Position numbers and translations under genes: made by a program. From Lepisosteus oculatus (lineage: Eukaryota > Chordata > Actinopteri > Semionotiformes > Lepisosteidae): 64,000 nt of DNA. The notes under the pieces are model-generated. The model was not told the DNA's origin. It ran no database searches and saw nothing but the letters and a program-made list of their open reading frames with translations. The stretch's first letter is position 1; each line of letters starts with the position of its first letter. The stretch spans positions 38,746,776 to 38,810,775 of the forward strand of contig NC_090709.1 of NCBI RefSeq assembly GCF_040954835.1. The letters run 5' to 3'. This document shows positions 4,991 to 35,310 of this stretch, piece after piece.

Positions 4991-5044
4991 GCGTACACAC
5001 GAGCTACCCCTACTGCTCAGAGTGAAGACTGGCTACACTGGTCC

Positions 5045-5640: not shown

Positions 5641-5900
5641 GGGAGCCCCCTGTCCGGTCGTGGGGTCCCAGAGAGGCCGGCAAGTTTGCCGCAGGGTTCA
5701 GTCCAGCCCGAGCTCGTTGCTGGCCCGGTACGAGCGGACCGGCCGATGACCCGCTCCGGGCCCGTCCTGCGGACACACTGACCGGCCCTCCGGACCTCCC
5801 TTCGGTACAGGGGTACACCCACCCCGCTGGGTCTGATACACCTTCTGGGGGGATCTTGCAGAGGGTGACCTCACTCCTTGAAGGGTCAGAGGTCAGAGTT
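5641..5900. other. Unique GC-rich stretch
   Basis: Non-repetitive GC-rich DNA between two arrays. An ORF spans it, but I recognise no protein and no exon. Confidence 0.4.
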
Positions 5901-6660
5901 CAGTGTGTGGGATCAGAGCTCACTATGAGGTGTGTTCACTGTCTACCCAGTCCAGTCCCTGAACACACTCACGGCCCTCCTCCAGGTGCCTGAACACAAG
6001 AAGATGTCAGCTCAGTGTGAGCCGTGTTCAGTGTCCCCCTAGTCCAGTCCCTGAACACACTCACAGCCCTCCTCCAGGTGCCTGAACACAAGAAGAGCTC
6101 AGCTCAGTGTGAGCCGTGTTCACTGTCTACCCAGTCCAGTCCCTGAACACACTCACAGCCCTCCTCCAGGTGCCTGAACACAAGAAGAGCTCAGCTCAGT
6201 GTGAGCCGTGTTCAGTGTCCCCCTAGTCCAGTCCCTGAGCACACTCACAGCCCTCCTCCAGGTGCCTGAACACAAGAAGAGCTCAGCTCAGTGTGAGCCG
6301 TGTTCACTGTCTACCCAGTCCAGTCCCTGAACACACTCAAAGCCCTCCTCCAGGTGCCTGAACACAAGAAGAGCTCAGCTCAGTGTGAGCCGTGTTCACT
6401 GTCTACCCAGTCCAGTCCCTGAACACACTCACAGCCCTCCTCCAGGTGCCTGAACACAAGAAGAGCTCAGCTCGGTGTGAGCCGTGTTCACTGTCCCCCC
6501 AGTCCAGTCCCTGAGCACACTCACAGCCCTCCTCCAGGTGCCTGAACACAAGAAGAGCTCAGCTCAGTGTGAGCCGTGTTCACTGTCTACCCAGTCCAGT
6601 CCCTGAGCACACTCACAGCCCTCCTCCAGGTGCCTGAACACAAGAAGAGCTCAGAGGGGC
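5900..6660 (+). repeat. 92 bp tandem repeat, about 8 units
   Basis: Each unit runs from gagccgtgttcactgtctac through cagccctcctccaggtgcct to gaacacaagaagagctcagc. Each contains an acceptor-like ctcctccag, so the array may derive from an intron-exon border upstream of the first recognisable BRD2 exon; no matching coding exon was recognised. Confidence 0.9.
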
Positions 6661-6992
6661 GCTCGGGGGACCCCCTGTTCCGGTGCTGCGATGTTCCAAC
6701 GCCCCCCCTCTCTCTGTGTCCCAGATGCGAGCGGGGCGCTCCGGGGACCCCCTGTTCCAACGCCCCCCCTCTCTCTCTGTGTGTGTCCCCCAGACGCGAG
6801 CGGGGCGCTCCGGGGACCCCCTGTTCCAACGCCCCCCCTCTCTCTCTGTGTGTGTCCCCCAGACGCGAGCGGGGCGCTCCGGGGACCCCCTGTTCCAACG
6901 CCCCCCCTCTCTCTCTGTGTGTGTCCCCCAGGCGCGAGCGGGGCGCTCCGGGGACCCCTGTTCCAACGTGCCCCCTCTCTCTCTGTGTCCCC
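6660..6992 (+). repeat. 69 bp tandem repeat abutting the first recognised BRD2 exon
   Basis: About five units of gagcggggcgctccggggac, ccctgttccaacgccccccc and tctctctctgtgtgtgtccc, each ending in a pyrimidine tract and CAG. The last unit supplies the acceptor of BRD2 exon a. Confidence 0.92.
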
Positions 6993-6994
6993 AG

Positions 6995-7286
6995 GCTGGT
7001 GCTGCAGGGCGGCGTCTCTGGCCCAGACCCGGGGGCGTCCGGCCCTGGCAAGCGCGTGCGCAAGCCCTCGCTGCTGTTCGAGGGGTTCGAGAGCGCCGCG
7101 CTGCCGCCGCCGGGGCCCCCCGCGGCCCCCCAGCCCCCGCAGCCCCCCGTGCGGGACCCCGGGAGGCCGGGCCGCGTCACCAACCAGCTGCAGTTCCTGC
7201 AGAAGGCCATGATGAAGGCGCTGTGGCGCCATCACTTCGCCTGGCCTTTCCACGAGCCCGTGGACGCCACCAAGCTCAACCTGCCC
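6995..7286 (+). CDS. brd2: BRD2 exon a: N-terminal segment and start of bromodomain 1
   Basis: The acceptor AG is at 6993-6994 and the donor GT at 7287-7288. The exon enters with one base of a split codon and ends in phase 0 at ...KLNLP. It holds KRVRKPSLL, a Pro-rich stretch, [12 protein letters not shown] and the WPF shelf of bromodomain 1. The exact 5' border is less sure, because other AG dinucleotides (for example inside ctgcag near 7010) also fit. The frame stays open upstream to 6576, but that stretch is low-complexity repeat. Confidence 0.9.
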
Positions 7287-10200
7287 GTGAGTGTACCCCC
7301 CTGTACCCCCTCTGTCACCCCCTGTACCCCCTGTACCCCTCTGTCCTCCCCTGTACCCCTCTGTCCTCCCCTGTACCCCACTTCGCCTGGCCCTTCCACG
7401 AGCCCGTGGACGCCACCAAGCTCAACCTGCCCGTGAGTGTACCCCTGTACCCCCCTGTACCCCTCTGTCCTCCCCTGTACCCCACTTCGCCTGGCCTTTC
7501 CACGAGCCTGTGGACGCCACCAAGCTCAACCTGCCCGTGAGTGTACCCCTGTACCCCCCTGTACCCCCTCTGTACCCCTCTGTACCTCCCCTGTACCCCA
7601 CTTCGCCTGGCCTTTCCACGAGCCCGTGGACGCCACCAAACTCAACCTGCCCGTGAGTGTACCCCTGTACCCCCTCTGTACCTCCCCTGTACCCCTCTGT
7701 CCTCCCCTGTACCCTCTGTCCTCCCCTGTACCCCACTTCGCCTGGCCCTTCCACGAGCCCGTGGACGCCACCAAGCTCAACCTGCCCGTGAGTGTACCCC
7801 TGTACCCCCCTGTACCCCCTCTGTCCTCCCCTGTACCCCCTCTGTGCCCCTCTGTACCTCCCCTGTGCCCCTCTGTACCTCCCTTGTACCCCTCTGTCCT
7901 CTCCTGTACCCCCTCTGTCCTCCCCTGTACCCCTCTGACTACCTCTGTCCTCCCCTGTCACCCCCTGTACCCCCTCTGTACCACCTTTGTCCTCTTCTGA
8001 CCACCTCTGTACCCCTCTGTCCTCCCCATCACCCTCTGTCCACATCTGTACCCCACCGTTCCTCCCTGTACCCCTCAGGTCACACACTGACAGTACAGTA
8101 CCTGTGTCTCAGTGTCTCAGGACACACACTGACAGTACAGTACCTGTGTCTCAGTGTCTCAGGACACACACTGACAGTACAGTACCTGTGTCTCAGTGTC
8201 TCAGGACACACACTGACAGTACAATACCTGTGTTTCTCTCTCAGGACACACACTGACAGTACAGTACCTGTGTTTCTCTCTCAGGGCACACACTGACAGT
8301 ACAGTACTTGTGTTTCTCTCTCAGGACACACACTGACAGTACAGTACCTGTGTCTCAGTGTCTCAGGACACAGACTGACAGTACAGTACCTGTGTTTCTC
8401 TCTCAGGGCACACACTGATAGTATAGTACCTGTGTCTCAGTGTCTCAGGACACACACTGATAGTATAGTACCTGTGTCTCAGTGTCTCAGGACACACACT
8501 GACAGTACAATACCTGTGTTTCTCTCTCAGGACACACACTGACAGTACAGTACCTGTGTTTCTCTCTCAGGACACACACTGACTGTACAGTACCTGTGTC
8601 TCAGTGTCTCAGGACACACACTGACTGTACAGTACCTGTGTCTCAGTGTCTCAGGACACACACTGACAGTACAGTACCTGTGTTTCTCTCTCAGGACACA
8701 CACTGACAGTACAGTACCTGTGTTTCTCTCTCAGGGCACACACTGACAGTACAGTACCTGTGTTTCTCTCTCAGGACACACACTGACAGTACAGTACCTG
8801 TGTTTCTCTCTCAGGACACACACTGACAGTACAGTACCTGTGTTTCTCTCTCAGGGCACACACTGACAGTACAGTACCTGTGTCTCAGTGTCTCAGGACA
8901 CACACTGACAGTACAATACCTGTGTTTCTCTCTCAGGACACACACTGACAGTACAGTACCTGTGTCTCAGTGTCTCAGGACACACACTGACAGTACAGTA
9001 CCTGTGTCTCAGTGTCTCAGGACACACACTGACAGTACAGTACCTGTGTTTCTCTCTCAGGACACACACTGACTGTACAGTACCTGTGTCTCAGTGTCTC
9101 AGGACACACACTGACAGTACAATACCTGTGTTTCTCTCTCAGGGCACACACTGATAGTATAGTACCTGTGTCTCAGTGTCTCAGGACACACACTGACAGT
9201 ACAATACCTGTGTTTCTCTCTCAGGACACACACTGACAGTACAGTACCTGTGTCTTGTAGGACTACCACAAGATCATCAAGCAGCCGATGGACATGGGCA
9301 CTATCAAGAAGAGGCTGGAGAACAACTACTATCGCAGCGCCAGTGAGTGTATGCAGGACTTCAACACCATGTTTACCAACTGCTACATCTACAACAAGGT
9401 AAGTACTGACACTGTCCCGACACCCTGACTCTCTGACTCTCGTCAGAGTATCGTTACTCTGGGGTATCAGTAGTATTGACTCAGTATAGTTTCGTTACTC
9501 TGGGGTATCGGTAGTATTGACTCAGTATAGTGACATTACTCTGGGGTATCGGAAGTATTTACTCAGTATAGTGACATAACTCTGGGGTATCAGTAGTATT
9601 GACTCAGTATAGTTTAGTTACTCTGGGTTATCGGAAGTATTTACTCAGTAGAGTGGCGTTACCCTGGGGTATTGGTAGTATTGACTCAGTATAGTTTCGT
9701 TACTCATATCGGTAGTATTGACTCAGTCTAGTGACATTACTCTTGGGTATTAGTAGTATTGACTCAGTATAGTTTCGTTACTCTGGGTTATTGGTAGTAT
9801 TGATTAAGTATAGTGACATTACTCTGGGGTGTCAGTAGTATTGACTCAGTAGAGTGGCGTTACCCTGGGGTATCAGTAGTATTGACTCAGTATAGTTTCG
9901 TTACTCATATCGGTAGTATTGAATCAGTTTAGTGACATTACTCTTGGGTATCAGTAGTATTGACTCAGTATAGTTTCGTTACTCTGGGTTATTGGTAGTA
10001 TTGATTAAGTATAGTGACATTACTCTGGGGTATCAATAGTTTTGACTCAATATAGTGGTGCTACTCTGGGGTATCAATAGTATTGACTCAATATAGTGGT
10101 GTTACTCTGGGGTATCGGTAGTATCGACTCGGTATGGTGTCTACTCTGGGTTATCAGTAGTATTGACTCAGTATATAGGTGTTTCTCTGGGGTATCGGTT

Positions 10201-13200
10201 GTATCGATTCAGTATAGTGTCTACTCTGGGGTATCGGTAGTATTGATTCAGTATAGTGGCGTTACTCTGGGGTATCAGTGGTATTGACTCAGTAGAGTGG
10301 CGTTACTCTGGGGTATCGGTGGTATTGATTCAGTAGAGTGGCGTTACTCTGGGGTATCGGTGGTATTGATTCAGTATAGTGGCGTTACTCTGGGGTATCA
10401 GTGGTATTGATTCAGTATAGTGGCGTTACTCTGGGGTATCAGTGGTATTGATTCAGTATAGTGGCGTTACTCTGGGGTATCAGAAGTATTGACTCAGTAG
10501 AGTGGCGTTACTCTGGGGTATCAATAGTATTGGCTCAGTATAGTAGCGTTACTCTGGAGTATCAGAAGTATTGACTCAGTAGAGTGGCGTTACTCTGGGG
10601 TTTCGGTAGTATTGACTCAGTAGAGTGACGTTACTCTGGGGGTATCAGTAGTATTGACTCAGTAGAGTGGCGTTACCCTGGGGTATCGGTAGTATTGACT
10701 CAGTATAGTGACATTACTCTGGGGTATCAGTAGTATTGACTCAGTAGAGTGGCGTTACCCTGGGGTATTGGTAGTATTGACTCAGTATAGTTTCGTTACT
10801 CTTGGGTATTAGTAGTATTGACTCAGTATAGTTTCGTTACTCTGGGTTATTGGTAGTATTGACTCAGTAGAGTGCGTTACTCTGGGGTATCGGTAGTATT
10901 GACTCAGTAGAGTGGTGTTACTCTGGGGTATCGGTAGTATTGACTCAGTAGAGTGGTGTTACTCTGGGGTATCGGTAGTATTGACTCAGTAGAGTGGTGT
11001 TACTCTGGGTTATCGGTAGTAATAATGCTCTTCCTCTCAGCCCACAGATGACATCGTGCTGATGGCTCAGTCCCTGGAGAAGGTCTTCCTCCAGAAAATT
11101 GCCCAGATGCCCCAGGAGGAGATAGAGCTGCCCCCTCCAGCCCCCAGGGGCAAACCGGGCAAGACGGGCAAGGGGCGCAAGCCTTCTGGTGAGCTGGGAC
11201 AGCAGAGGGGCAGATGGCACAAGGGGTCTTTCTTGGGGCAGATTGCTGGCCAGTGGGGCAGATGATTCAGGGGGGTATTCTGTGGGGCAGATGTCTGTTG
11301 TGCAGCAGTGTGTCAGTAATACCCCCCTCTCTCTCTGTACCCCAGTCTCAGGGGTATCTGCAGCAGTGTGTCAGTAATACCCCCCCTCTCTCTCTCTGTA
11401 CCCCAGTGCCCGGAGGAGTGACCACAGCTCACCAGGTCCCCGCTGTCTCCTCGGTGTCCCACTCCCTGTACTCGCCCCTGACCCCCGACACCCCCGACTC
11501 CGGCCTCTCCTGCCCCCCGCAGACCCTCATCGCCAAGAGCCTGGGGCCCCCGCACGCGCCGGGCCTGATGGGACTGCCTCCCACGCAGCCCACCGCCAAG
11601 GTAACGGGCCGCCGTCGTCGTGGTGACTTTAGGGTGTGTTGGGATGGCGCCGCCCTGCAGGAGGCTGCAGGTACTGGCCCGGGGCAAAGCAAGGCACCCT
11701 GGGATATCAGGCGCAGAGTTCTCCAGCCAGCACGGAGGGTGACAGGGGGCGCTCGGCGTGGGTTTGGGGGGGATGGACAGCGGCCCCCCTGGGTGAGGGT
11801 GGGTGTGTGACAGGACCGGCCCGGCCCGGGACAGGAGAGAGGGGGGAGGGTGACAGGACCGGCCCGGGGCTGGAGGGAGGAGGGGGGTGTGACAGGACCG
11901 GGGCAGGAGGGGGTGGGACAGGACTGGACCCGGGGCAGGAGGGAGGAGGGGGGTGTGACAGGACCGTCCCGGGGCAGGAGGGAGGAGGGGGGTGTGACAG
12001 GACCGGGCAGGAGGGGGTGGGACAGGACTGGACCCGGGACAGGAGAGAGGGGGGAGGGTGACAGGACCGGGGCAGGAGGGGGTGGGACAGGACTGGACCC
12101 GGAACAGGAGAGAGGGGGGAGGGTGACAGGACCGGCCCGGGGCAGGAGGGAGGAGGGGGGTGTGACAGAACCGGCCCGGGGCAGGAGGGAGGAGGGGGGT
12201 GTGACAGGACCGGGGCAGGAGGGGGTGGGACAGGACTGGACCCGGAACAGGAGAGAGGGGGGAGGGTGACAGGACCGGCCCGGGGCAGGAGGGAGGAGGG
12301 GGGTGTGACAGGACCGGGGCAGGAGGGGGTGGGACAGGACTGGACCCGGGACAGGAGAGAGGGGGGAGGGTGACAGGACCGGCCCGGGGCAGGAGGGAGG
12401 AGGGGGGTGTGACAGAACCGGGGCAGGAGGGGGTGGGACAGGACTGGACCCGGGGCAGGAGGGAGGAGGGGGGTGTGACAGAACCGGGGCAGGAGGGGGT
12501 GGGACAGGACTGGACCCGGGGCAGGAGGGAGGGGGGAGGGTGACAGGACCGGCCCGGGGCAGGAGGGAGGGAGGGACAGGACTGGGGCAGGAGGGAGGGA
12601 GGGGCAGGACCGGGGCAGGAGGGTGGGGGTGTCGTGGGCTAGGAGGTGACGGAATGGCGCCGTCCGGGTGTCTTGGTGTCCCGGTGTCCCAGTGTCCCAG
12701 TGTCCGGGTGTCCGGTGTCCCGGTGTCCGGGTGTCCCGGTGTCCTAGTGCCCCAGTGTTCCGGTGCCCCGGTGCCCTGGTGTCCCGGTGTCCAGGTGCCC
12801 GGTGTCCTGGTGTCCCGGTGCCCTGGTGTCCCGGTGCCCTGGTGTCCCGGTGTCCAGGTGCCCGGTGTCCTGGTGTCCGGGTGCCCTGGTGTCCGGGTGT
12901 CCGGGTGTCCTGGTGTCCTGGTGTCCGGGTGCCCTGTTGTCCTAGTGCCCCGGTGTCCCAGTGTCTGGGTGTCCGGTGTCCCGGTGTCCGGGTGTCCCGG
13001 TGTCCTAGTGCCCCAGTGTTCCGGTGCCCCGGTGCCCTGGTGTCCCGGTGTCCAGGTGCCCGGTGTCCTGGTGTCCCGGTGCCCTGGTGTCCCGGTGCCC
13101 TGGTGTCCCGGTGTCCAGGTGCCCGGTGTCCGGGTGCCCTGGTGTCCGGGTGTCCGGGTGTCCTGGTGTCCTGGTGTCCGGGTGCCCTGTTGTCCTAGTG

Positions 13201-16200
13201 CCCCGGTGTCCTGGTGTCCTAGTGTCCCGGTGCCCTGGTGCTCTGGTGTCCCGGTGTCCCGGTGCCCTGGTGTCCCGGTGTCCCGGTGCCCTGGTGCTCT
13301 GGTGTCCCGGTGTCCCGGTGCCCTGGTGTCCCGGTGCCCTGGTGCTCTGGTGTCCCGGTGTCCCGGTGCCCCGGCGCGAGCCCTGACCGGTCCCTCTCCC
13401 TCCGCAGAAGAAGGGCGTGAAGCGCAAGGCGGACACCACCACTCCCACCACGGTGGCCATGCCGCTGGCCGGCGCGGGCGGGGGCGGGGGGGACTCCCCG
13501 CCGGCCACGCCCCTCCCGCCCTGCCCCTCGGGGCCCGGCGGGCCTGGGGGGGCGGTGGCGGCGGCCAAGCTGCCGGCCCGGCGGCGCGAGAGCGGCCGGC
13601 CCATCAAGCCGCCGCGGAAGGACCTGCCGGACTCGCCGCAGCAGCACCAGCCCTCGCGGCGCGGCCGGCTCAGCGCCCCCCTGCGCTGCTGCAGCAGCCT
13701 GCTCAAGGAGCTGCTGTCCAAGAAGCACGCCGCCTACGCCTGGCCCTTCTACAAGCCCGTGGACGCCTCGGCCCTCAGCCTGCACGACTACCACGACATC
13801 ATCAAGCACCCCATGGACCTGAGCACCATCAAGGTGACACACACACACTGACACCACGACATCATCAAGCACCCCATGGACCTGAGCACCATCAAGGTGA
13901 CACACACACACTGACACCACGACATCATCAAGCACCCCATGGACCTGAGCACCATCAAGGTGACACACACACACACACTGACACCACGACATCATCAAGC
14001 ACCCCATGGACCTGAGCACCATCAAGGTGACACACACACACACTGACACCACGACATCATCAAGCACCCCATGGACCTGAGCACCATCAAGGTGACACAC
14101 ACACACACACTGACACCACGACATCATCAAGCACCCCATGGACCTGAGCACCATCAAGGTGACACACACACACACTGACACCACGACATCATCAAGCACC
14201 CCATGGACCTGAGCACCATCAAGGTGACACACACACACTGACACCACGACATCATCAAGCACCCCATGGACCTGAGCACCATCAAGGTGACACACTGACA
14301 CACACTGACACCACGACATCATCAAGCACCCCATGGACCTGAGCACCATCAAGGTGACGCACACACACACACTGACACCACGACATCATCAAGCACCCCA
14401 TGGACCTGAGCACCATCAAGGTGACACACACACACACACTGACACCACGACATCATCAAGCACCCCATGGACCTGAGCACCATCAAGGTGACACACACAC
14501 ACACTGACACCACGACATCATCAAGCACCCCATGGACCTGAGCACCATCAAGGTGACGCACTGACACACACACACACACACTGACACCACGACATCATCA
14601 AGCACCCCATGGACCTGAGCACCATCAAGGTGACACACACACACACACTGACACCACGACATCATCAAGCACCCCATGGACCTGAGCACCATCAAGGTGA
14701 CGCACTGACACACTGACACCACGACATCATCAAGCACCCCATGGACCTGAGCACCATCAAGGTGACACACACACACACACTGACACCACGACATCATCAA
14801 GCACCCCATGGACCTGAGCACCATCAAGGTGACACACACACACTGACACCACGACATCATCAAGCACCCCATGGACCTGAGCACCATCAAGGTGACACAC
14901 TGACACACACTGACACCACGACATCATCAAGCACCCCATGGACCTGAGCACCATCAAGGTGACGCACACACACACACTGACACCACGACATCATCAAGCA
15001 CCCCATGGACCTGAGCACCATCAAGGTGACACACACACACACTGACACCACGACATCATCAAGCACCCCATGGACCTGAGCACCATCAAGGTGACGCACT
15101 GACACACACACACACACACTGACACCACGACATCATCAAGCACCCCATGGACCTGAGCACCATCAAGGTGACACACACACACACACTGACACCACGACAT
15201 CATCAAGCACCCCATGGACCTGAGCACCATCAAGGTGACGCACTGACACACTGACACCACGACATCATCAAGCACCCCATGGACCTGAGCACCATCAAGG
15301 TGACACACACACACACACACACACACTGACACCACGACATCATCAAGCACCCCATGGACCTGAGCACCATCAAGGTGACACACACACACACACTGACACC
15401 ACGACATCATCAAGCACCCCATGGACCTGAGCACCATCAAGGTGACACACTGACACACACACTGACACCACGACATCATCAAGCACCCCATGGACCTGAG
15501 CACCATCAAGGTGACACACTGACACACTGACACCACGACATCCTCAAGCACCCCATGGACCTGAGCACCATCAAGGTGACACACTGACACACTGACACCA
15601 CGACATCATCAAGCACCCCATGGACCTGAGCACCATCAAGGTGACACACTGACACACTGACACCACGACATCCTCAAGCACCCCATGGACCTGAGCACCA
15701 TCAAGGTGACACACTGACACACACACTGACACCACGACATCATCAAGCACCCCATGGACCTGAGCACCATCAAGGTGACACACTGACACACTGACACCAC
15801 GACATCCTCAAGCACCCCATGGACCTGAGCACCATCAAGGTGACGCACTGACACACACACACACACTGACACCACGACATCATCAAGCACCCCATGGACC
15901 TGAGCACCATCAAGGTGACGCACACACACACACTGACACCACGACATCATCAAGCACCCCATGGACCTGAGCACCATCAAGGTGACGCACTGACACACAC
16001 ACACACTGACACCACGACATCATCAAGCACCCCATGGACCTGAGCACCATCAAGGTGACGCACACACACTGACACCACGACATCATCAAGCACCCCATGG
16101 ACCTGAGCACCATCAAGGTGACACACTGACACACACACACTGACACCACGACATCCTCAAGCACCCCATGGACCTGAGCACCATCAAGGTGACGCACTGA

Positions 16201-19200: not shown

Positions 19201-22200
19201 GCGTTTGTAATGGACTTCAGGTGTGTGTGGCTGAAATTGACTACTGTAGGTGTGTGTGGTTATAATGGACTACGCTGTAGGTGTGTGCGTCTGTAATGCA
19301 CTTTACTGCAGGTGTGGGCATCTGTAATGGACTTCGCTGTAGGTGTGTGTGGCTGTAATGGACTTCCCTGTAGATGTGTGGATCTGTAATGGACTTTACT
19401 GCAGGTGTGTGGGTCTGTAATGGACTTTACTGCAGGTGTGTGGGTCCGTAATGGACTTTGCTGCAGGTGTGTGAGTCTGTAATTGACTTTGCTGCAGGTG
19501 TGTGGGTCTGTAATGCACTTTGCTGCAGGTGTGTGGGTCTGTAATGCACTTTGCTGCAGGTATGTGTGTCTGTAATGCACTTTGCTGCAGGTGTGTGAGT
19601 CTGTAATTGACTATACTGTAGGTGTGTGGGTCTGTAATGCACTTTGCTGCAGGTGTGTGAGTCTGTAATGGACTTTACTGCAGGTGTGTGGGTCTGTACT
19701 GGACTTTACTGCAGGTGTGTGGGTCTGTAATGGACTTTGCTGCAGGTGTGTGAGTCTGTAATGGACTTTACTGCAGGTGTGTGGGTCTGTAATGGACTTT
19801 ACTGCAGGTGTGTGGGTCTGTAATGCACTTTACTGCAGGTGTGTGGGTCTGTAATGGACTTTACTGCAGGTGTGTGGGTCTGTAATGCACTTTGCTGCAG
19901 GTGTGTGAGTCTAATGGACTTTGCTGCAGGTGTGTGAGTCTGTAATGGACTTTACTGCAGGTGTGTGGGTCTGTACTGCACTTTACTGCAGGTGTGTGAG
20001 TCTGTAATGGACTTTACTCCAGGTGTGTGAGTCTGTACTGGACTTTACTGCAGGTGTGTGGGTCTGTACTGCACTTTGCTGCAGGTGTGTGAGTCTAATG
20101 GACTTTGCTGCAGGTGTGTGAGTCTGTAATGGACTTTGCTGCAGGTGTGTGGGTCTGTAATGCACTTTACTGCAGGTGTGTGGGTCTGTAATGCACTTTA
20201 CTGCAGGTGTGTGGGTCTGTACTGCACTTTGCTGCAGGTGTGTGGGTCTGTACTGGACTGTGCTGCAGGTGTGTAGGTCTGTACTGGACTGTGCTGCAGG
20301 TGTGTGAGTCTGTACTGGACTTTACTGCAGGTGTGTGGGTCTGTACTGGACTGTGCTGCAGGTGTGTGGGTCTGTACTGGACTGTGCTGCAGGTGTGTGA
20401 GTCTGTAATGCACTTTGCTGCAGGTGTGTGGGTCTGTAATGGACTTTACTGCAGGTGTGTGAGTCTGTACTGGACTGTGCTGCAGGTGTGTGGGTCTGTA
20501 CTGGACTGTGCTGCAGGTGTGTGAGTCTGTAATGGACTTTACTGCAGGTGTGTGTGTCTGTACTGGACTGTGCTGCAGGTGTGTGAGTCTGTACTGGACT
20601 GTGCTGCAGGTGTGTGAGTCTGTACTGGACTGTGCTGCAGGTGTGTGTTTCTGTACTGGACTGTGCTGCAGGTGTGTGAGTCTGTACTGGACTGTGCTGC
20701 AGGTGTGTGGGTCTGTACTGGACTGTGCTGCAGGTGTGTGTGTGTCTGTACTGGAATGTGCTGCAGGTGTGTGTGTCTGTACTGGACTGTGCTGCAGGTG
20801 TGTGAGTCTGTACTGGACTGTGCTGCAGGTGAGTGTGTCTGTACTGGACTGTGCTGCAGGTGTGTGAGTCTGTACTGGACTGTGCTGCAGGTGTGTGGGT
20901 CTGTACTGGACTGTGCTGCAGGTGTGTGGGTCTGTACTGGACTGTGCTGCAGGTGTGTGTGAGTCTGTACTGGACTGTGCTGCAGGTGTGTGAGTCTGTA
21001 CTGGACTGTGCTGCAGGTGTGTGGGTCTGTACTGGACTGTGCTGCAGGTGTGTGTGAGTCTGTACTGGACTGTGCTGCAGGTGTGTGAGTCTGTACTGGA
21101 CTGTGCTGCAGGTGAGTGAGTCTGTACTGGACTGTGCTGCAGGTGTGTGAGTCTGTACTGGACTGTGCTGCAGGTGTGTGAGTCTGTACTGGACTTTACT
21201 GCAGGTGTGTGAGTCTGTACTGGACTGTGCTGCAGGTGTGTGGGTCTGTACTGGACTTTGCTGCAGGTGTGTGTGAGTCTGTACTGGACTGTGCTGCAGG
21301 TGTGTGAGTCTGTACTGGACTGTGCTGCAGGTGTGTGGGTCTGTAATGGACTTTACTGCAGGTGTGTGTGTCTGTACTGGACTGTGCTGCAGGTGTGTGA
21401 GTCTGTACTGGACTGTGCTGCAGGTGAGTGAGTCTGTACTGGACTGTGCTGCAGGTGTGTGAGTCTGTACTGGACTGTGCTGCAGGTGTGTGGGTCTGTA
21501 ATGGACTTTACTGCAGGTGTGTGTGTCTGTACTGGACTGTGCTGCAGGTGTGTGAGTCTGTACTGGACTGTGCTGCAGGTGTGTGAGTCTGTACTGGACT
21601 GTGCTGCAGGTGAGTGAGTCTGTACTGGACTGTGCTGCAGGTGTGTGAGTCTGTACTGGACTGTGCTGCAGGTGTGTGAGTCTGTACTGGACTGTGCTGC
21701 AGGTGAGTGAGTCTGTACTGGACTGTGCTGCAGGTGTGTGGGTCTGTACTGGACTGTGCTGCAGGTGTGTGAGTCTGTACTGGACTGTGCTGCAGGTGTG
21801 TGAGTCTGTACTGGACTGTGCTGCAGGTGTGTGGGTCTGTACTGGACTGTGCTGCAGGTGAGTGGGTCTGTACTGGACTGTGCTGCAGGTGAGTCTGTAC
21901 TGGACTGTGCTGCAGGTGAGTCTGTACTGGACTGTGCTGCAGGTGTGTGTGTCTGTACTGGACTGTGCTGCAGGTGTGTGGGTCTGTACTGGACTGTGCT
22001 GCAGGTGTGTATGTCTGTACTGGACTGTGCTGCAGGTGTGTGTGTCTGTACTGGACTGTGCTGCAGGTGTGTGGGTCTGTACTGGACTGTGCTGCAGGTG
22101 AGTCTGTACTGGACTGTGCTGCAGGTGTGTGGGTCTGTACTGGACTGTGCTGCAGGTGTGTGTGTCTGTACTGGACTGTGCTGCAGGTGTGTGGGTCTGT

Positions 22201-25200
22201 ACTGGACTGTGCTGCAGGTGAGTGGGTCTGTACTGGACTGTGCTGCAGGTGTGTGAGTCTGTACTGGACTGTGCTGCAGGTGTGTGTGTCTGTACTGGAC
22301 TGTGCTGCAGGTGTGTGTGTCTGTACTGGACTGTGCTGCAGGTGTGTGGGTCTGTACTGGACTGTGCTGCAGGTGTGTGGGTCTGTACTGGACTGTGCTG
22401 CAGGTGTGTGAGTCTGTACTGGACTGTGCTGCAGGTGTGTGGGTCTGTACTGGACTGTGCTGCAGGTGTGTGAGTCTACTGGACTGTGCTGCAGGTGTGT
22501 GTGTCTGTACTGGACTGTGCTGCAGGTGTGTGAGTCTGTACTGGACTGTGCTGCAGGTGTGTGGGTCTGTACTGGACTGTGCTGCAGGTGTATGAGTCTG
22601 TACTGGACTGTGCTGCAGGTGTGTGAGTCTGTACTGGACTGTGCTGCAGGTGTGTGGGTCTGTACTGGACTGTGCTGCAGGTGTGTGAGTCTGTACTGGA
22701 CTGTGCTGCAGGTGTGTGAGTCTGTACTGGACTGTGCTGCAGGTGTGTGTGAGTCTGTACTGGACTGTGCTGCAGGTGTGTGAGTCTGTACTGGACTGTG
22801 CTGCAGGTGTGTGGGTCTGTACTGGACTTTACTGCAGGTGTGTGGGTCTGTACTGGACTGTGCTGCAGGTGTGTGGGTCTGTACTGGACTGTGCTGCAGG
22901 TGTGTGAGTCTGTACTGGACTGTGCTGCAGGTGAGTGGGTCTGTACTGGACTGTGCTGCAGGTGAGTGTGGAGCAGCAGTCCGGCTGTCCAGTCAGGCAG
23001 GCCCCAGCGGGGTGCGGTCCGGTTGTGTCCGGCGGCCTCTCTCAGCGGCTGCGTTCCCCCCCAGGACGTGTTCGAGTTCCGGTTCGCCAAGATGCCGGAC
23101 GAGCCCCTGGAGGCGCCGCCCCCCACGCCGCTGGGCGCGCCCGCCGGGCCGGGGGGGTCGTCCTCGTCCTCGGAGAGCGAGCCGAGCAGCGAGACGGAGA
23201 GCCGGAGCAGCCCCAGCTCGGACAGCGAGGAGGAGCGGGCTCACAGGCTGGCCGAGCTGCAGGAGCAGGTGCTGCCCCCCTCCCTCTCTCTCTGTGTGTG
23301 TGTGTTAACACCCCCCTCTCTCTCTGTGTGTGTGTTAACACCCCTCTCTGTGTGTGTGTGTGTTAACACCCCTCTCTGTGTGTGTGTTAACACCCCTCTC
23401 TGTGTGTGTGTTAACACCCCTCTCTGTGTGTGTGTTAACACCCCTCTCTGTGTGTGTGTGTGTTAACACCCCCCTCTCTCTCTCTGTGTGTATTAACCCC
23501 TCTCTCTCTCTCAGTGTATTAACCCCTCTGTCTCTCTCTCTCTCAGTGTGTATTAACCCCCCCTCTCTCAGTGTGTGTTAACCCCTCTGTCTCTCTCTCT
23601 CAGTGTATTAACCCCTCTCTGTGTCTATTAACCTCTGTCTCTCTCTCTCAGTGTATTAACCCCTCTCTCTCTCAGTGTGTATTAACCCCTCTGTCTCTCT
23701 CTCTCAGTGTGTATTAACCCCTCTCTCTCTCTCAGTGTATTAACCCCTCTCTCTCTCAGTGTGTATTAACCCTTCTGTCTCTCTCTCTCAGTGTATTAAC
23801 CCCTCTCTCTCTCTCAGTGTATTAACCCCTCTCTCTCTCAGTGTGTATTAACACCTCTGTCTCTCTCTCTCAGTGTGTATTAACCCCTCTCTCTCTGTGT
23901 GAATTAACCCCTCTCAGTGTGTATTAACCCCTCTCTCTCTCAGTGTGTATTAACCCCCCTCTCTCTCTCTCTCAGCTGAGGGCGGTGCACGAGCAGCTCG
24001 CCGCTCTGTCCCAGGGTCCGATCTCCAAGCCCAAGAAGAAGAGGGAGAGGAAGGAGAAGAGGAAGAGGAAGAAGCCCGAGAAGCACCGCGGGGGCCGGGG
24101 GGGTGACGACGACGGGGACAGGCCCCCCAAGACCCCCAAGACCTCCAAGGCCAGCAGGGCGGCGCCCTCCTCCACGCAGGGCAAGAAGAGCAGCGCGGGC
24201 CGGAGGAGCAGCAAGAGCAGCAAGTGAGTCCTGTCTGTCTCTCTGGGCTCTCAGCCTGCCCGTCTCCCTCTCTCTGGGCTCTCAGCCTGCCCGTCTCCCT
24301 CTCTCTGGGCTCTCAGCCTGCCCGTCTCCCTCTCTCTGGGCTCTCAGCCTGCCCGTCTCCCTCTCTCTGGGCTCTCAGACTGCCCGTCTCCCTCTCTCTG
24401 GGCTCTCAGCCTGCCCGTCTCCCTCTCTCTGGGCTCTCAGACCGCCTGTCTGTCTCTCTGGGCTCTCAGACCGCCCGTCTCCCTCTCTCTGGGCTCTCAG
24501 CCTGCCCGTCTGTCTCTCTCTGGGCTCTCAGACTGCCCGTCTGTCTCTCTGGGCTCTCAGACCGCCCGTCTCCCTCTCTCTGGGCTCTCAGACTGCCCGT
24601 CTGTCTCTCTGGGCTCTCAGACCCCCCGTCTCCCTCTCTCTGGGCTCTCAGCCTGCCTGTGTCTCAGTGTGGCACCTCAGTGACCCCCTCTCCCCTGCGC
24701 CCCAGTGACCCCCCTCTCTCTCTCCCCCAGGTCCTCGAAGAAGCCCGCGGCGCCCCCGGCCCCGCCCCCGGCCCCGCCCGCCCCGCCGCCGCCGCCGCAC
24801 TACGACTCGGAGGAGGAGGAGGAGGAGGGGGGCGGCCGGCCCATGAGCTACGACGAGAAGCGGCAGCTCAGCCTGGACATCAACAAGCTGCCGGGCGAGA
24901 AGCTGGGCCGCGTGGTGCACATCATCCAGGCGCGCGAGCCGGCGCTGCGCGACTCCAACCCCGAGGAGATCGAGATCGACTTCGAGACGCTCAAGCCCTC
25001 CACGCTGCGCGAGCTGGAGCGCTACGTCATGGGCTGCCTGCGGAGGAAGCCCCGCCGGCCCTGCGGTGAGGGACTGGGGGGACTGGGGGGACTGGGAGGG
25101 ACTGGGAGAGAGACACACGCTGGGGGAGAGACTGGGAGGGACTGGGAGGGACTGGGAGAGAGACACACGCTCAAGCCCTCCACGCTGCGCGAGCTGGAGC

Positions 25201-28200
25201 GCTACGTCATGGGCTGCCTGCGGAGGAAGGCCCGCCGGCCCTGCGGTGAGGGACTGGGGGGACTGGGAGGGACTGGGAGAGAGACACACGCTGGGGGAGA
25301 GACTGGGAGGGACTGGGAGGGACTGGGAGAGAGACACACGCTCAAGCCCTCCACGCTGCGCGAGCTGGAGCGCTACGTCATGGGCTGCCTGCGGAGGAAG
25401 CCCCGCCGGCCCTGCGGTGAGGGACTGGGGGGACTGGGGGGACTGGGAGGGACTGGGAGAGAGACACACACTGGGGGAGGGACTGGGAGGGACTGGGAGA
25501 GGGACACACGCTCAAGCCCTCCACGCTGCGCGAGCTGGAGCGCTACGTCATGGGCTGCCTGCAGAGGAAGGCCCGCCGGCCCTGCGGTGAGGGACTGGGG
25601 GGACTGGGAGGGACTGGGAGAGAGACACACACTGGGGGAGAGACTGGGAGGGACTGGGAGAGAGACACACGCTCAAGCCCTCCACGCTGCGCGAGCTGGA
25701 GCGCTACGTCATGGGCTGCCTGCAGAGGAAGGCCCGCCGGCCCTGCGGTGAGGGACTGGGGGGACTGGGAGGGACTGGGAGAGAGACACACACTGGGGGA
25801 GAGACTGGGAGGGACTGGGAGAGAGACACACGCTCAAGCCCTCCACGCTGCGCGAGCTGGAGCGCTACGTCATGGGCTGCCTGCAGAGGAAGGCCCGCCG
25901 GCCCTGCGGTGAGGGACTGGGGGGACTGGGAGGGACTGGGAGAGAGACACACACTGGGGGAGAGACTGGGAGAGACTGGGAGGGACTGGGAGAGAGACAC
26001 ACGCTCAAGCCCTCCACGCTGCGCGAGCTGGAGCGCTACGTCATGGGCTGCCTGCAGAGGAAGGCCCGCCGGCCCTGCGGTGAGGGACTGGGGGGACTGG
26101 GAGGGACTGGGAGAGAGACACACACTGGGGGAGAGACTGGGAGGGACTGGGAGAGAGACACACGCTCAAGCCCTCCACGCTGCGCGAGCTGGAGCGCTAC
26201 GTCATGGGCTGCCTGCGGAGGAAGCCCCGCCGGCCCTGCGGTGAGGGACTGGGGGGACTGGGAGGGACTGGGAGGGACTGGGAGAGAGACACACGCTCAA
26301 GCCCTCCACGCTGCGCGAGCTGGAGCGCTACGTCATGGGCTGCCTGCGGAGGAAGCCCCGCCGGCCCTGCGGTGAGGGACTGGGGGGACTGGGAGGGACT
26401 GGGAGAGAGACACACGCTGGGGGAGGGACTGGGAGGGACTGGGAGGGACTGGGAGAGAGACACACACTGGGGGAGAGACTGGGAGGGACTGGGAGAGAGA
26501 CACACGCTGGGGGAGGGACTGGGAGGGACTGGGAGAGAGACACACGCTCAAGCCCTCCACGCTGCGCGAGCTGGAGCGCTACGTCATGGGCTGCCTGCGG
26601 AGGAAGCCCCGCCGGCCCTGCGGTGAGGGACTGGGGGGACTGGGAGGGACTGGGAGGGACTGGGAGAGAGACACACACTGGGGGAGAGACTGGGAGGGAC
26701 TGGGAGAGAGACACACGCTCAAGCCCTCCACGCTGCGCGAGCTGGAGCGCTACGTCATGGGCTGCCTGCGGAGGAAGCCCCGCCGGCCCTGCGGTGAGGG
26801 ACTGGGGGGACTGGGAGAGAGACACACACTGGGGGAGAGACTGGGAGGGACTGGGAGAGAGACACACTTGGGGAGAGACTGGGGCCGCTGGGAGGGACTG
26901 GGAGAGAGACACACTGGGGGAGAGACTGGGGCCGCTGGGGTCACTGGGAGGGACTGGGGCCGCTGGGGGGGACTGGGGCCGCTGGGGTCACTGGGGCCGC
27001 TGGGAGGGACTGGGGGGGACTGGGGCCGCTGGGGTCACTGGGAGGGACTGGGGCCGCTGGGGGAGAGACTGGGGAGTTCGTACAGACACATTGAGAGACA
27101 GGGGGGTTCATACAGACACACTGGACACACTGGGAGAGACTGGGGGGTCACTGGACACACTGGGAGAGACTGGGGGGTCACTGGACACAGTGGGACACAC
27201 TGGGAGACGGGGGGAGACACACTGGGAGACGGGGGTGGTGGTAGTGATGTCTGAAGCCCTGTCCCTCCCGCAGTGGTGAAGAAGTCCGGCTCGGGGAAGT
27301 TCTCACAGACACACTGGGGGGAGACACTGGGGAAGACACACTGGGGGAGACACACTGGGAGACGGGGGTGGTGGTAGTGGCGGTGATGTCTGAAGCCCTG
27401 TCCCTCCCGCAGTGGTGAAGAAGTCCGGCTCGGGGAAGTTCTCACAGACACACTGGGACACACTGGGAGACACACTGGGAGACGGGGGTGGTGGTAGTGG
27501 CGGTGATGTCTGAAGCCCTGTCCTCCCGCAGTGGTGAAGAAGTCCGGCTCGGGGAAGTTCTCACAGACACACTGGGGGGAGACACTGGGGAAGACACACT
27601 GGGGGAGACACACTGGGAGACACTGGGAGACTGGGGGAGACACACTGGGAGACGGGGGGAGACACACTGGGAGACACTGGGAGACGGGGGTGGTGGTAGT
27701 GATGTCTGAAGCCCTGTCCTCCCGCAGTGGTGAAGAAGTCCGGCTCGGGGAAGTTCTCACAGACACACTGGGGGGAGACACTGGGGAAGACACACTGGGG
27801 GAGACACACTGGGAGACACTGGGAGACTGGGGGAGACACACTGGGAGACGGGGGGAGACACACTGGGAGACGGGGGTGGTGGCGGTGATGTCTGAAGCCC
27901 TGTCCCTCCCGCAGTGGTGAAGAAGTCCGGCTCGGGGAAGTTCTCACAGACACACTGGGGGGAGACACACTGGGAGACACACTGGGAGACGGGGGTGGTG
28001 GTAGTGATGTCTGAAGCCCTGTCCCTCCCGCAGTGGTGAAGAAGTCCGGCTCGGGGAAGTTCTCACAGACACACTGGGGGGAGACACTGGGGGAGACACT
28101 GGGAGACGGGGGTGGTGGTAGTGATGTCTGAAGCCCTGTCCCTCCCGCAGTGGTGAAGAAGTCCGGCTCGGGGAAGTTCTCACAGACACACTGGGGGGAG

Positions 28201-28994
28201 ACACTGGGGGAGACACACTGGGAGACGGGGGTGGTGGTAGTGATGTCTGAAGCCCTGTCCTCCCGCAGTGGTGAAGAAGTCCGGCTCGGGGAAGTTCTCA
28301 CAGACACACTGGGGGGAGACACTGGGGGAGACACACTGGGAGACACTGGGAGACGGGGGTGGTGGTAGTGATGTCTGAAGCCCTGTCCTCCCGCAGTGGT
28401 GAAGAAGTCCGGCTCGGGGAAGTTCTCACAGACACACTGGGGGAGACACACTGGGAGACACACTGGGAGACGGGGGTGGTGGTGGTGGTAGTGGCGGTGA
28501 TGTCTGAAGCCCTGTCCCTCCCGCAGTGGTGAAGAAGTCCGGCTCGGGGAAGTTCTCACAGACACACTGGGACACACTGGGAGACACACTGGGAGACGGG
28601 GGTGGTGGTAGTGATGTCTGAAGCCCTGTCCCTCCCGCAGTGGTGAAGAAGTCCGGCTCGGGGAAGTCCCGGGAGGAGCTGGCGCTGGAGAAGAAGAGGG
28701 AGCTGGAGAAGAGGCTGCAGGACGTCAGCGGCCAGCTCAACTCCGCCAAGAGGCCCCCCAAGACCAAGGGTGAGCGGGGGGGTGACCGGGCGGCGGCCGC
28801 GCGCCCCCTGGTGTCCGGCCCGAGCGCCGCGCTGACCCGTCTCTCTCTCTGTCTCTCTCGCAGCGGAGAAGCCCGGCCCGGTCCAGCCCCACGCCGCCGT
28901 GTCCCGGCTCAGCGCCAGCAGCTCCAGCTCGGACTCCTCCTCCTCCTCCTCCTCGTCCTCCTCCTCCGACACCAGCGACTCCGACTCGGGGTGA
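6995..28994 (+). CDS. brd2: BRD2, bromodomain-containing protein 2 (BET family), 11 coding exons, N-terminus missing
   Basis: BRD2 is a nuclear BET protein that binds acetylated histone tails and recruits transcription machinery. Joined exons: 6995-7286, 9261-9398, 11041-11188, 11407-11600, 13408-13833, 17970-18098, 23065-23268, 23976-24223, 24731-25065, 28641-28769, 28864-28994. All junctions are GT-AG and phases agree, giving 791 residues and a TGA. The order is the BET order: RVRKPSLL near the start, bromodomain 1 (about 62-170, WPF shelf, acetyl-lysine Asn 143), a linker with [13 protein letters not shown], bromodomain 2 (about 340-443, WPF shelf, Asn 429), an acidic Ser stretch, a Lys/Arg-rich nuclear signal, the ET domain (about 632-700) and a Ser-rich C-terminus ending SDSDSG. 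Human BRD2 is about 801 residues, so roughly 10-20 residues are missing. The linker and C-terminus match BRD2 rather than BRD3, BRD4 or BRDT. Confidence 0.96.
7229..7790 (+). repeat. Amplified BRD2 exon-a tail with splice donor, 5 copies
   Basis: The segment cacttcgcctggcctttcca through aacctgcccgtgagtgtacc (the last 54 exon bases plus donor) recurs at about 7233 (genuine), 7379, 7484, 7594 and 7734. The copies are separated by ctgtaccccctctgt repeats. Confidence 0.95.
7791..8085 (+). repeat. C/T-rich ctgtacccctctgtcctccc repeats in BRD2 intron
   Basis: Simple degenerate repeats continue from the exon-tail array. They are pyrimidine-rich on the + strand, with no gene. Confidence 0.85.
8085..9256 (+). 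repeat. 40/42 bp minisatellite with acceptor-like ends
   Basis: About 29 units of gacacacactgacagtacag followed by tacctgtgtttctctctcag, or the variant ending tgtctcagtgtctcag. The last unit leads into the real acceptor cttgtag|gactac of BRD2 exon b, so every unit ends like a 3' splice site. Confidence 0.95.
9261..9398 (+). CDS. brd2: BRD2 exon b: core of bromodomain 1
   Basis: Phase 0 to phase 0, 46 codons, from [13 protein letters not shown] to FTNCYIYNK. It contains the BC-loop Asn of the NCYIYN motif that hydrogen-bonds acetyl-lysine. The acceptor is ttgtag and the donor gtaagt. The exon is nearly identical in protein sequence to other vertebrate BRD2. Confidence 0.96.
9420..11035 (+). 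repeat. 41 bp minisatellite in BRD2 intron b-c
   Basis: About 38 units of ggtatcggtagtattgactc followed by agtatagtgacattactctgg. It fills the intron from 20 bases after the donor to a few bases before the polypyrimidine tract of exon c. Confidence 0.95.
11041..11188 (+). CDS. brd2: BRD2 exon c: end of bromodomain 1
   Basis: Starts in phase 0 with [14 protein letters not shown], continues through the last helix ([12 protein letters not shown]) into a basic Pro/Gly/Lys linker, and ends in phase 1 before gtgagc. Confidence 0.94.
11280..11406 (+). repeat. Duplicated polypyrimidine tract and acceptor before BRD2 exon d
   Basis: Two copies of gcagcagtgtgtcagtaata followed by a CT tract and gtaccccag. 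The second provides the acceptor of exon d. Confidence 0.9.
11407..11600 (+). CDS. brd2: BRD2 exon d: inter-bromodomain linker
   Basis: Phase 1 to phase 0. The conserved segment [19 protein letters not shown] is followed by a less conserved Pro-rich linker ending PTAK before gtaacg. A 60-70 bp upstream duplication gives a second acceptor-like site near 11346; the one at 11405-11406 keeps the phase and the homology. Confidence 0.92.
11800..12650 (+). repeat. G-rich minisatellite in BRD2 intron d-e
   Basis: Mixed units of gtgacaggaccggcccgggg, caggagggaggaggggggtg and gggtgggacaggactggacc. The + strand has many runs of three or more G, so it is a candidate G-quadruplex region. Confidence 0.93.
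12660..13380 (+). repeat. 9-10 bp repeat (gtgtcccgg / gtgccctgg) with a higher-order period of about 260 bp
   Basis: Short units ccggtgtcc, cctggtgtc and ccggtgccc. A block near 12702-12960 is repeated almost intact from about 12966. The 491-residue ORF here is a reading of this repeat. Confidence 0.93.
13408..13833 (+). CDS. brd2: BRD2 exon e: linker and first half of bromodomain 2
   Basis: 142 codons, phase 0 to 0. It begins [15 protein letters not shown] and passes a Gly/Pro/Ala-rich insert. The conserved [17 protein letters not shown] follows, then [16 protein letters not shown], and it ends HPMDLSTIK before gtgaca. The last 45 or so bases are the seed of the large array that follows. 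Confidence 0.95.
13784..17752 (+). repeat. BRD2 exon-e tail plus splice donor amplified about 59 times
   Basis: Each 57-78 bp unit has about 45 bases of the end of exon e (caccacgacatcatcaagca, ccccatggacctgagcacca, tcaag) joined to gtgacacacacacactgaca. Copy 1 is the real exon end. Later copies keep the coding bases almost unchanged apart from an atcatc/atcctc variant and rare single changes; the (CA)n part varies in length. A TGA lies in frame six codons after the first donor. Confidence 0.97.
17753..17945 (+). repeat. cacactgacacagtcgca repeats
   Basis: A short degenerate array between the exon-tail array and the acceptor of BRD2 exon f. Confidence 0.85.
17970..18098 (+). CDS. brd2: BRD2 exon f: second half of bromodomain 2
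   Basis: 43 codons, phase 0 to 0, from [14 protein letters not shown] to MARKLQ. It contains [13 protein letters not shown] with the acetyl-lysine-binding Asn. The donor is ctgcag|gtgtgt, and this sequence recurs in every unit of the next array. Confidence 0.96.
18092..22968 (+). repeat. 31 bp minisatellite carrying the exon-f donor sequence, about 150 units
   Basis: The unit is ctgcaggtgtgtgagtctgt followed by actggactgtg. Each begins with ctgcag|gtgtgtg, identical to the real donor of exon f at 18093-18105. The left half is more variable (aatggacttt), the right half very homogeneous. Confidence 0.96.
18866..18990 (+). repeat. Second copy of the sequence just inside the exon-f intron
   Basis: Matches 18093-18222 (ctgcaggtgtgtgcagagac through the gaagacttccctgtag region) and lies within the 31 bp array. 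Confidence 0.9.
23065..23268 (+). CDS. brd2: BRD2 exon g: end of bromodomain 2 and acidic Ser-rich linker
   Basis: 68 codons, phase 0 to 0. It starts [16 protein letters not shown], continues through a Pro/Gly and Ser/Glu-rich stretch with many casein-kinase-2-type serines, and ends [14 protein letters not shown]. Confidence 0.95.
23270..23972 (+). repeat. ctctctctgtgtgtgttaac and ctctctctcagtgtattaac repeats in BRD2 intron g-h
   Basis: Tandem 23-33 bp units. The later ones contain ctctctctcag, like the real acceptor of exon h at 23975. Confidence 0.92.
23976..24223 (+). CDS. brd2: BRD2 exon h: coiled segment and nuclear localisation signal
   Basis: Phase 0 to phase 2. [20 protein letters not shown] is followed by a dense Lys/Arg run (nuclear signal), then a Lys/Ser/Pro-rich tail. 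The donor is caa|gtgagt. Confidence 0.94.
24232..24660 (+). repeat. 31 bp minisatellite in BRD2 intron h-i
   Basis: About 14 units of ctctctgggctctcagcctg followed by cccgtctccct, starting directly after the donor of exon h. Confidence 0.94.
24731..25065 (+). CDS. brd2: BRD2 exon i: extra-terminal (ET) domain
   Basis: Phase 2 to phase 1. A Pro/Ala-rich lead and an acidic run precede the complete ET domain, [20 protein letters not shown] through [16 protein letters not shown], with RRKPRRPC at the end. The donor is ctgcg|gtgagg. The exon tail is the seed of a following array with ten more copies, the first two in frame. Confidence 0.95.
24987..26830 (+). repeat. BRD2 ET-domain exon tail plus donor amplified, 11 copies
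   Basis: Each unit has about 76 bases of exon i (acgctcaagccctccacgct to ccgccggccctgcg) joined to gtgagggactggggggactg and gggagagagacacac spacers. Copies start near 24990 (genuine), 25170, 25341, 25511, 25673, 25833, 26004, 26166, 26296, 26547 and 26717. The first three are in one reading frame. Confidence 0.96.
26831..27262 (+). repeat. gactgggagggactgggg repeats
   Basis: G-rich degenerate repeats linking the donor array to the acceptor array of the same BRD2 intron. No gene. Confidence 0.85.
27240..28660 (+). repeat. BRD2 exon-j acceptor amplified, 11 copies
   Basis: Each 117-198 bp unit has gtgatgtctgaagccctgtc, cctcccgcag and then tggtgaagaagtccggctcg gggaag. The first ten copies run into ttctcacagacacactgggg. 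Only the last, at 28641, continues into conserved coding sequence. Confidence 0.96.
28641..28769 (+). CDS. brd2: BRD2 exon j: coiled coil after ET domain
   Basis: Phase 1 to phase 1. [20 protein letters not shown] runs into the conserved [14 protein letters not shown] helix. Of eleven copies of this acceptor between 27262 and 28641, only this last one continues into the conserved coding sequence (GKSREEL rather than GKFSQTH). Confidence 0.94.
28864..28994 (+). CDS. brd2: BRD2 exon k: Ser-rich C-terminus and stop
   Basis: Enters in phase 1 (AEKPGPVQ...), then [13 protein letters not shown], a poly-Ser run, and DTSDSDSG followed by TGA at 28992-28994. This is the standard BET C-terminal tail. 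Confidence 0.95.
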
Positions 28995-35035: not shown

Positions 35036-35310
35036 AGTCTGTGTGGTCTCTCAGTGTGTCCAGTGACCCCCAGTCTCTCTCTCTCAGTGTGTCTGGATGA
35101 ACCCCCGTCTCTCAGTGTGTCCAGGGCCCCCCCTGTCTCTCTTCTTACTGCGCCTTCTGGGGCCCAGTAAGATGTCCTTATTTCAAGTGCGGAAGCCATT
35201 GTTTGTGATTTAAGAGAAGCGGAGTTTCTGAGGGAGTAAGAGAGTTATCTGTGCGCATGGGCCTGGTACAGAATATGTGGTGTTTTCAAAAATCCATCTG
35301 GCTTCTCAGC
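35036..35310. other. Intergenic DNA, no gene seen
   Basis: A short tctctctctcagtgtgtcc repeat, then unique sequence. Confidence 0.5.

Follow-up and report, generated by a model that had tools for sequence, protein, structure and literature searches.

Minisatellites whose repeat units run across an exon boundary are known from two animal groups. In lancelets, where they have been named 'mirages' (PMC3087553), they were described in Adh, in the globin genes BflGb6 and BflGb9, in TnC and in PGBD5, and they are reported not to disturb splicing (PMC3087553, PMC3902484). In the chicken they were named 'exon stuttering' (Hron et al. 2026, PMC12954441). There, 190 of the 236 stuttering introns are located on dot chromosomes, an association that the paper does not include among its three main features of stuttering, and its authors state, with the data not shown, that apart from gerbil genes they found no stuttering in other vertebrates (PMC12954441). 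We analyzed a window of 64,000 nucleotides from Lepisosteus oculatus (contig NC_090709.1, positions 38,746,776 to 38,810,775), which contains the gene BRD2, and found four arrays of this type within three of its introns, at the donors of exons a, e and i and at the acceptor of exon j. These exon-edge arrays are real, and they very probably represent mirage minisatellites, or exon stuttering, that arose from random local tandem duplications in a repeat-prone region around the genes of the major histocompatibility complex (MHC). The structure itself is of a known kind; what is new is its host, a non-teleost fish, and its position on a chromosome of ordinary size. Among the titles listed in our open-access search, none reports exon-edge minisatellites in a fish.

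The exon-edge arrays of BRD2

Eleven coding exons of BRD2 were mapped on the plus strand between positions 6995 and 28994 (coordinates are those of the window unless stated otherwise):

6995..7286, plus strand: exon a, the first exon mapped
9261..9398, plus strand: exon b
11041..11188, plus strand: exon c
11407..11600, plus strand: exon d
13408..13833, plus strand: exon e, start of the second bromodomain
17970..18098, plus strand: exon f
23065..23268, plus strand: exon g
23976..24223, plus strand: exon h
24731..25065, plus strand: exon i, ET domain
28641..28769, plus strand: exon j
28864..28994, plus strand: exon k, with the stop codon

The spliced exons form a single open frame of 790 residues that ends at a stop, which bears out the claim of the preliminary description of this DNA that the coding exons are intact and in phase. 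The initiator exon was not found. The spliced product tracks human BRD2 for most of its length, and the gene looks like BRD2. When the spliced exons were set against the human protein, no new intron splitting a former exon was seen. A study of potato RdRp reportedly described intron gain by tandem genomic duplication; the two cases are alike in that tandem duplication is thought to supply splice signals, whereas here no new intron or exon is seen and the copies lie inside an existing intron.

The four exon-edge arrays are organized as follows:

7233..7787, plus strand: exon a donor array, 5 copies of the terminal 54 bp of exon a with GTGAGT, spaced 104-146 bp
13790..17756, plus strand: exon e donor array, 59 copies of the terminal 44 bp of exon e with GTGAC[A/G], spaced 57-77 bp
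24987..26793, plus strand: exon i donor array, 11 copies of the terminal 79 bp of exon i with GTGAGG
27274..28667, plus strand: exon j acceptor array, 11 copies of TCCCGCAG with the initial 27 bp of exon j

The copies were counted in an ungapped scan allowing at most 20% mismatch, with the authentic copy, which is the last one in the exon j array, included. The GT or AG was retained in all 86 copies, and 51 of the 59 copies of the exon e edge were identical to the exon. With the thresholds published for exon stuttering (blastn-short, length at least 20, at least 42.1 bits), 4, 58, 10 and 10 extra copies were recovered for exons a, e, i and j, respectively. The copied parts extend to the exon border in every case (239-292 of 292 in a, 383-426 of 426 in e, 257-335 of 335 in i and 1-27 of 129 in j), and in 20 shuffles of the introns the best match scored 26.3 bits, none reaching 42.1. 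Two distal matches to exon e in intron a were taken as bromodomain-to-bromodomain similarity and left out of the count. By eye, a two-copy repeat can also be seen at the exon d acceptor, at the end of intron c (about 11302-11407), which was not reported by Tandem Repeats Finder (TRF). The copy numbers given in the preliminary description (5, about 59, 11 and 11) were thus reproduced by both the scan and blastn-short. Its claim of junction arrays in at least four introns held for the number of arrays and not for that of the introns, as intron i (25066-28640) holds two of them, one at the donor of exon i and one at the acceptor of exon j.

As in the lancelet mirages, the repeat units span the exon-intron boundary and either boundary can be affected: the donors of a, e and i and the acceptor of j in BRD2, and the exon 7 donor and exon 9 acceptor in two TAP2 genes upstream of it (see below). 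The differences concern the vertebrate host, the involvement of several junctions of one gene, a region that is nearly half tandem repeat, and the array size, as haplotypes of lancelet BflGb6 are described with 6 and 3 units and the arrays here reach 59 (BRD2) and 55 (TAP2) units. The two TAP2 genes, used within this single assembly as a proxy for haplotype instability, differ in array length (55 versus 42 and 3 versus 7 units). As in chicken exon stuttering, which is described as local arrays that fill introns and of which a subset carries a lateral exon part plus donor or acceptor, the introns are highly repetitive: TRF arrays make up 94% of the 19,626 intronic bases between the mapped BRD2 exons and cover 83-99% of eight of the ten introns, with none in introns c and j. 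The exon copies in the proximal introns pass the length and bit thresholds and stand above the shuffled introns, and the related BRD3-like and BRDT-like genes elsewhere are clean. The copied exon part measures 20-187 bp in the chicken and 27-79 bp in BRD2, and 1-44 copies are given for the chicken against up to 58 extra copies here (PMC12954441). Another difference is that the host is a fish and the window lies at 38.7 Mb of a contig of 60,006,905 bases, which is not a dot chromosome.

Each BRD2 array shows one breakpoint inside the exon, shared by all extra copies (4/4 in a, 58/58 in e, 10/10 in i, 10/10 in j). This pattern is better explained by one founding duplication at each junction, with later amplification, than by repeated copying of the exon. 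The unit boundary at TAP2 exon 7 likewise falls on the same bases in 54/54 and 40/41 extra copies, the odd one having one nearby base that differs, and exon and intron end there have CTGCGCTG (8 bp) in common. Compared with the reference exon part, mismatches amounted to 4 of 270 bases for a, 8 of 2596 for e, 9 of 869 for i and 0 of 297 for j, with a mean identity of the copied parts of 98.5-100%. Among the copies of exons e and i, 16 of the 17 differences were nonsynonymous (5 distinct changes, 4 of them nonsynonymous), so that these two arrays give no indication of coding constraint.

The introns also contain arrays of other kinds:

8074..9255, plus strand: intron a, 40-bp array whose unit has an acceptor-like TCTCAG|GAC end
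9452..11021, plus strand: intron b, 41-bp array in which no exon copy was detected
11795..13374, plus strand: intron d, arrays of 104-bp (11795-12627) and 8-bp (12662-13374) units, likewise with no exon copy detected
18209..22968, plus strand: intron f, 31-bp array of 151 YAG|GT units, tie to the exon f donor not established
23286..23970, plus strand: intron g, CT-rich array of 24-28-bp units with CTCTCAG ends, reaching up to 6 bp from the acceptor
24238..24657, plus strand: intron h, 31-bp array with GGGCTCTCAG

The preliminary description had assigned the exon f donor to around 150 units. This could not be established, considering that the array begins about 110 bp past the donor; in its first fifth, 11 of 29 units carry TAG instead of CAG. 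The acceptor-like unit ends that it noted at exons b and h are present as intron-side AG motifs, and at g too, but no exon copy passed the screen. In the 264 kb searched (the window and 100 kb on each side), the BRD2 units were unrelated to each other and local, which supports the view that no single satellite has spread. There were three exceptions: the CT-rich unit of intron g recurs in three other clusters, the G-rich arrays of intron i match each other, and one of the latter matches 35068-35141. Further arrays with units of 40, 43, 92 and 69 bp lie upstream of exon a (153-4903 and 5037-6994), the 69-bp unit next to the exon having an acceptor-like CCCCAG end.

The MHC neighbourhood and the BET paralogs

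The 264 kb consist for 48% of tandem repeat. Upstream of BRD2, TAP1 lies between two oppositely oriented TAP2 genes, and exons of MHC class I and II genes are scattered through the region; the TAP and MHC names are presumed from the protein families. The following genes were placed, those of TAP relative to base 1 of the window:

about -80.6 to -69.9 kb, minus strand: TAP2x
-65.7 to -52.3 kb, plus strand: TAP1
-47.3 to -37.0 kb, plus strand: TAP2z
41896-44065, 46801-48683 and 58395-60221 of the window: genes of MHC class II (alpha and beta), adjacent to BRD2

We examined 88 exon edges in BRD2, TAP1, both TAP2 genes and eight MHC class II genes. Nine were flagged as stuttering and eight were kept, four in BRD2 and two in each TAP2 gene. 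The ninth, the exon 4 acceptor of TAP2z, was removed, as its border turned out to lie 56 bp too far upstream (it was shifted by 51 bp in the placement test described below). The process is therefore regional, affecting the TAP2 pair besides BRD2. The exon 7 donor array of TAP2 has an 89-bp unit in 55 (x) and 42 (z) copies, each of which retains the GT (55/55 and 42/42), and the exon 9 acceptor array has 3 (x) and 7 (z) copies. The exon-edge screen found no stuttering edge among 18 in TAP1 and 18 in the MHC class II genes, and none of 5 MHC class I segments matched in a codon-score-trimmed screen that also missed TAP2. The class II genes next to BRD2 contain no exon-edge copies, and the repeat cover within 1.5 kb is 0.03-0.20, with one exon at 0.48.

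Over their aligned parts the exons of TAP2x and TAP2z are 96.6-100% identical, whereas seven of eight introns differ in length by at least 100 bp, with the reservation that two z borders were set early; that of exon 2, for instance, looks too early (117 versus 68 bp). Near-identical exons with unequal introns point to fast turnover of the arrays. At the acceptor end, 18 of 20 units correspond between the unit maps of the two exon 7 arrays; the donor-proximal parts of this one array pair align no better than shuffles (a fraction of 0.146 of 500 reached the score).

Four places with an ET domain (BET) were found in the genome; teleosts carry additional BET copies. Among the three BET paralogs on other contigs one of 48 edges stutters, the exon g donor of a BRD4-like gene (minus strand, contig C11, about 14.24 Mb), whereas none of the 34 edges of the BRD3-like and BRDT-like genes does; the borders of the paralogs are partly rough and one lacks GT. 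The BRD4-like array has 12 units with GT in 12/12, its copies being more diverged than those of BRD2 (2-6 of 32 bases), and within 15 kb TRF gave only two further short arrays (1.9 and 2.5 copies). Nine stretches sampled elsewhere, of which six belong to the three BET loci, had a repeat cover of 0.00-0.07, and a 4-kb stretch at 39.2 Mb of the window's own contig (200 N included) had one of 0.76. Judged from these few samples, the block of BRD2 and the MHC genes appears to be an island rich in repeats.

Some further repeats of the region were recorded. A dispersed 121-bp minisatellite occurs at 32460-34131, 47630-48250, 51006-52414, 53247-53959 and 57388-57623 and elsewhere in the 264 kb, with at least a dozen other clusters, unlike the local arrays of BRD2. 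A 79-bp array, 98% homogeneous, runs from 60246 to the end of the window at 64000 and on to about 69600, about 9 kb in total. Outside the region, the domain FISNA (PF14484), which we take to be the fish-typical NLR type, gave at least 33 matches in the genome, and 27 of the 33 among the matches listed lie on contig C18 at about 3-19 Mb. Feather keratin (PF02422), of which birds have many, gave no match, although the controls of this search gave none either and absence is not proven by it. With these two results the genome reads as that of a fish and not of a bird, probably a non-teleost.

Random placement or targeting of splice junctions

The preliminary description had regarded the arrays as seeded at exon borders. 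Under this explanation a process directed at splice junctions, for instance R-loops or co-transcriptional breaks, would have started them. We consider this unlikely, as the number of junction arrays matches that expected from random placement, which leaves seeding at splice sites unsupported. In the placement null, a duplication of each observed unit length was placed at random, and an array was counted if its overlap with an exon was 20 bp or more. For BRD2, 4.7 exon-edge arrays were expected with introns at their array-collapsed lengths, 2.7 with these lengths doubled, 4.0 with introns of 500 bp and 2.2 with introns of 1 kb, against four seen; the probability of at least four was 0.17-0.76, the lowest value being that at 1 kb, and under no assumption was there a significant excess. 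Two were seen in TAP2x against 0.9-3.2 expected, two in TAP2z against 1.7-5.9, the upper figure being inflated by a floored intron length, and none in TAP1 against 0.9-2.9. TAP1 thus falls below expectation: none of its 13 TRF arrays includes 20 bp of exon, and two extend 12 and 14 bp into one.

Other observations do favour targeting. Edges stutter in 8 of 88 cases in BRD2, TAP1, TAP2 and the MHC class II genes and in 1 of 48 in the BET paralogs, and the main array of the BRD4-like gene, with only two short ones besides it in 15 kb, includes a donor. Further arrays of TAP1 and TAP2 enter exons by 5-16 bp, below the threshold of the screen; at an overlap of 5 bp, three arrays touch exons in TAP2x, five in TAP2z, two in TAP1 and three in BRD2. 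For TAP2z with assumed introns of 1 kb these five compare with 2.0 expected (P 0.026), which is one of 16 such comparisons and the only case above expectation at this overlap. On the other hand, donors and acceptors are involved alike, and the GC skew of the BRD2 arrays takes both signs (-0.54 to +0.56). A shared R-loop polarity was therefore rejected as a general cause; the preliminary description had named R-loop-linked repair among the conceivable mechanisms. Seeding at borders is not needed, but could hold if the ancestral introns were long. A common core motif was rejected as well: the 174 arrays of the 264 kb fall into 106 families by common 16-mers, across which no 7- to 10-mer exceeded the maximum of 100 dinucleotide shuffles (k = 10 equals it) and the commonest were mostly low-complexity CA and GA.

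The recurrence of the arrays looks like regional birth of repeats and not like the targeting of splice sites. Around the MHC genes, where the DNA is prone to tandem repetition, short introns would have undergone single local tandem duplications at arbitrary spots. Some of these would have been flanked by short direct repeats, and some would by chance have spanned an exon edge. The units may subsequently have grown in number and been homogenized through slippage, unequal exchange or gene conversion. Selection would have purged arrays that broke the frame, and the survivors would be those in which the copy adjacent to the exon body stayed intact. With that copy intact, the surviving arrays leave the exon as it was, and their additional splice sites are decoys inside the intron.

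Several points weigh against an origin by random local duplication. TAP1 combines a TAP2-like exon GC content and a similar repeat load with 0/18 stuttering edges; exon GC is 0.70 in BRD2, 0.61 in TAP2 and 0.62 in TAP1, so that GC alone fails to separate the stuttering genes from TAP1, and the genes differ without explanation. The homology at the BRD2 breakpoints, judged by eye, is short (about 1 bp in a, 2 bp in e, 2-5 bp in i, 3 bp in j) and could be due to chance. Among the exon a copies, 4/4 differences (3 distinct) are synonymous, a small signal that could hint at constraint or at exchange with the exon. The placement test depends on the assumed ancestral intron lengths and on the segmentation by TRF, which breaks BRD2 into 23 rows, of which 3 reach an exon, and by itself stops the exon a array short of the exon. 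Two arrays overlap in intron 6 of TAP2z, where a floor of 30 was set for the collapsed length, so that the expectation is inflated. The P of 0.026 for this gene counts here as well. Finally, the analysis covered the DNA of a single assembly, so that any length polymorphism and the splicing outcome are predictions.

Splice decoys and the meaning of the locus

The transcript was described earlier as loaded with decoy splice sites, which is correct for donors and not clearly so for acceptors. Scored with approximate weights, 207 intronic GT sites of BRD2, 133 of them in intron f, equal or exceed their own authentic donor against 18 in shuffled introns, and the acceptor decoys number 39 against 28, no clear excess; across intron a, 29 acceptor decoys equal or surpass the authentic acceptor, against 15 after shuffling. 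Use of a decoy is predicted to lead to a premature stop in 4/4 cases for exon a, 58/58 for e, 8/10 for i and 10/10 for j, with the frame kept in 2/10 for i. As a rule, a productive mRNA therefore needs the copy nearest the exon body, and the correct one would require the exon-proximal copy, i.e. the first donor or the last acceptor; we infer that exon definition picks this site.

The decoys could themselves be functional and tune the output of BRD2 or TAP2 through unproductive or recursive splicing. The intact GT or AG in 86/86 BRD2 copies, the premature stops that decoy use would usually yield and the 151 YAG|GT sites of the intron f array, YAG|GT being the type of site used in recursive splicing, are in line with such a role. 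Given the mean identity of 98.5-100%, however, retention of the splice sites is expected without selection, the 106 array families lack a common core motif above the shuffled maximum, and lancelet mirages are reported not to disturb splicing (PMC3087553, PMC3902484), which together make a function of this kind very improbable. That the arrays are collapsed or inflated products of the assembly is barely plausible, since variant units are present, the TAP2 exon 7 unit maps match in 18/20 units at one end and the same structure occurs in BRD2, TAP2 and the BRD4-like gene, even though misassembly of a mirage locus is on record for the lancelet draft genome (PMC3087553), the largest copy numbers exceed the 1-44 of the chicken (PMC12954441) and the TAP2 pair might in principle be an assembly duplicate; the exact copy numbers may nevertheless be wrong.

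An origin by random local duplication in a repeat-prone region leaves room for a more tentative proposal, namely that the MHC-linked BRD2/TAP2 segment might be an island of repeat birth that stutters at any chromosome size, with dot status not being the cause, and in which the turnover of the arrays is polar and concentrated next to the exon, as the single pair of TAP2 exon 7 unit maps suggests. Stuttering on a fish chromosome of ordinary size implies in any case that explanations requiring dot chromosomes are too narrow. Genes that naturally carry 5 to 59 near-identical competing splice sites offer a test of site choice by the spliceosome, and the near-identical TAP2x and TAP2z, with their unequal array lengths, form a natural pair for the study of array growth and turnover.

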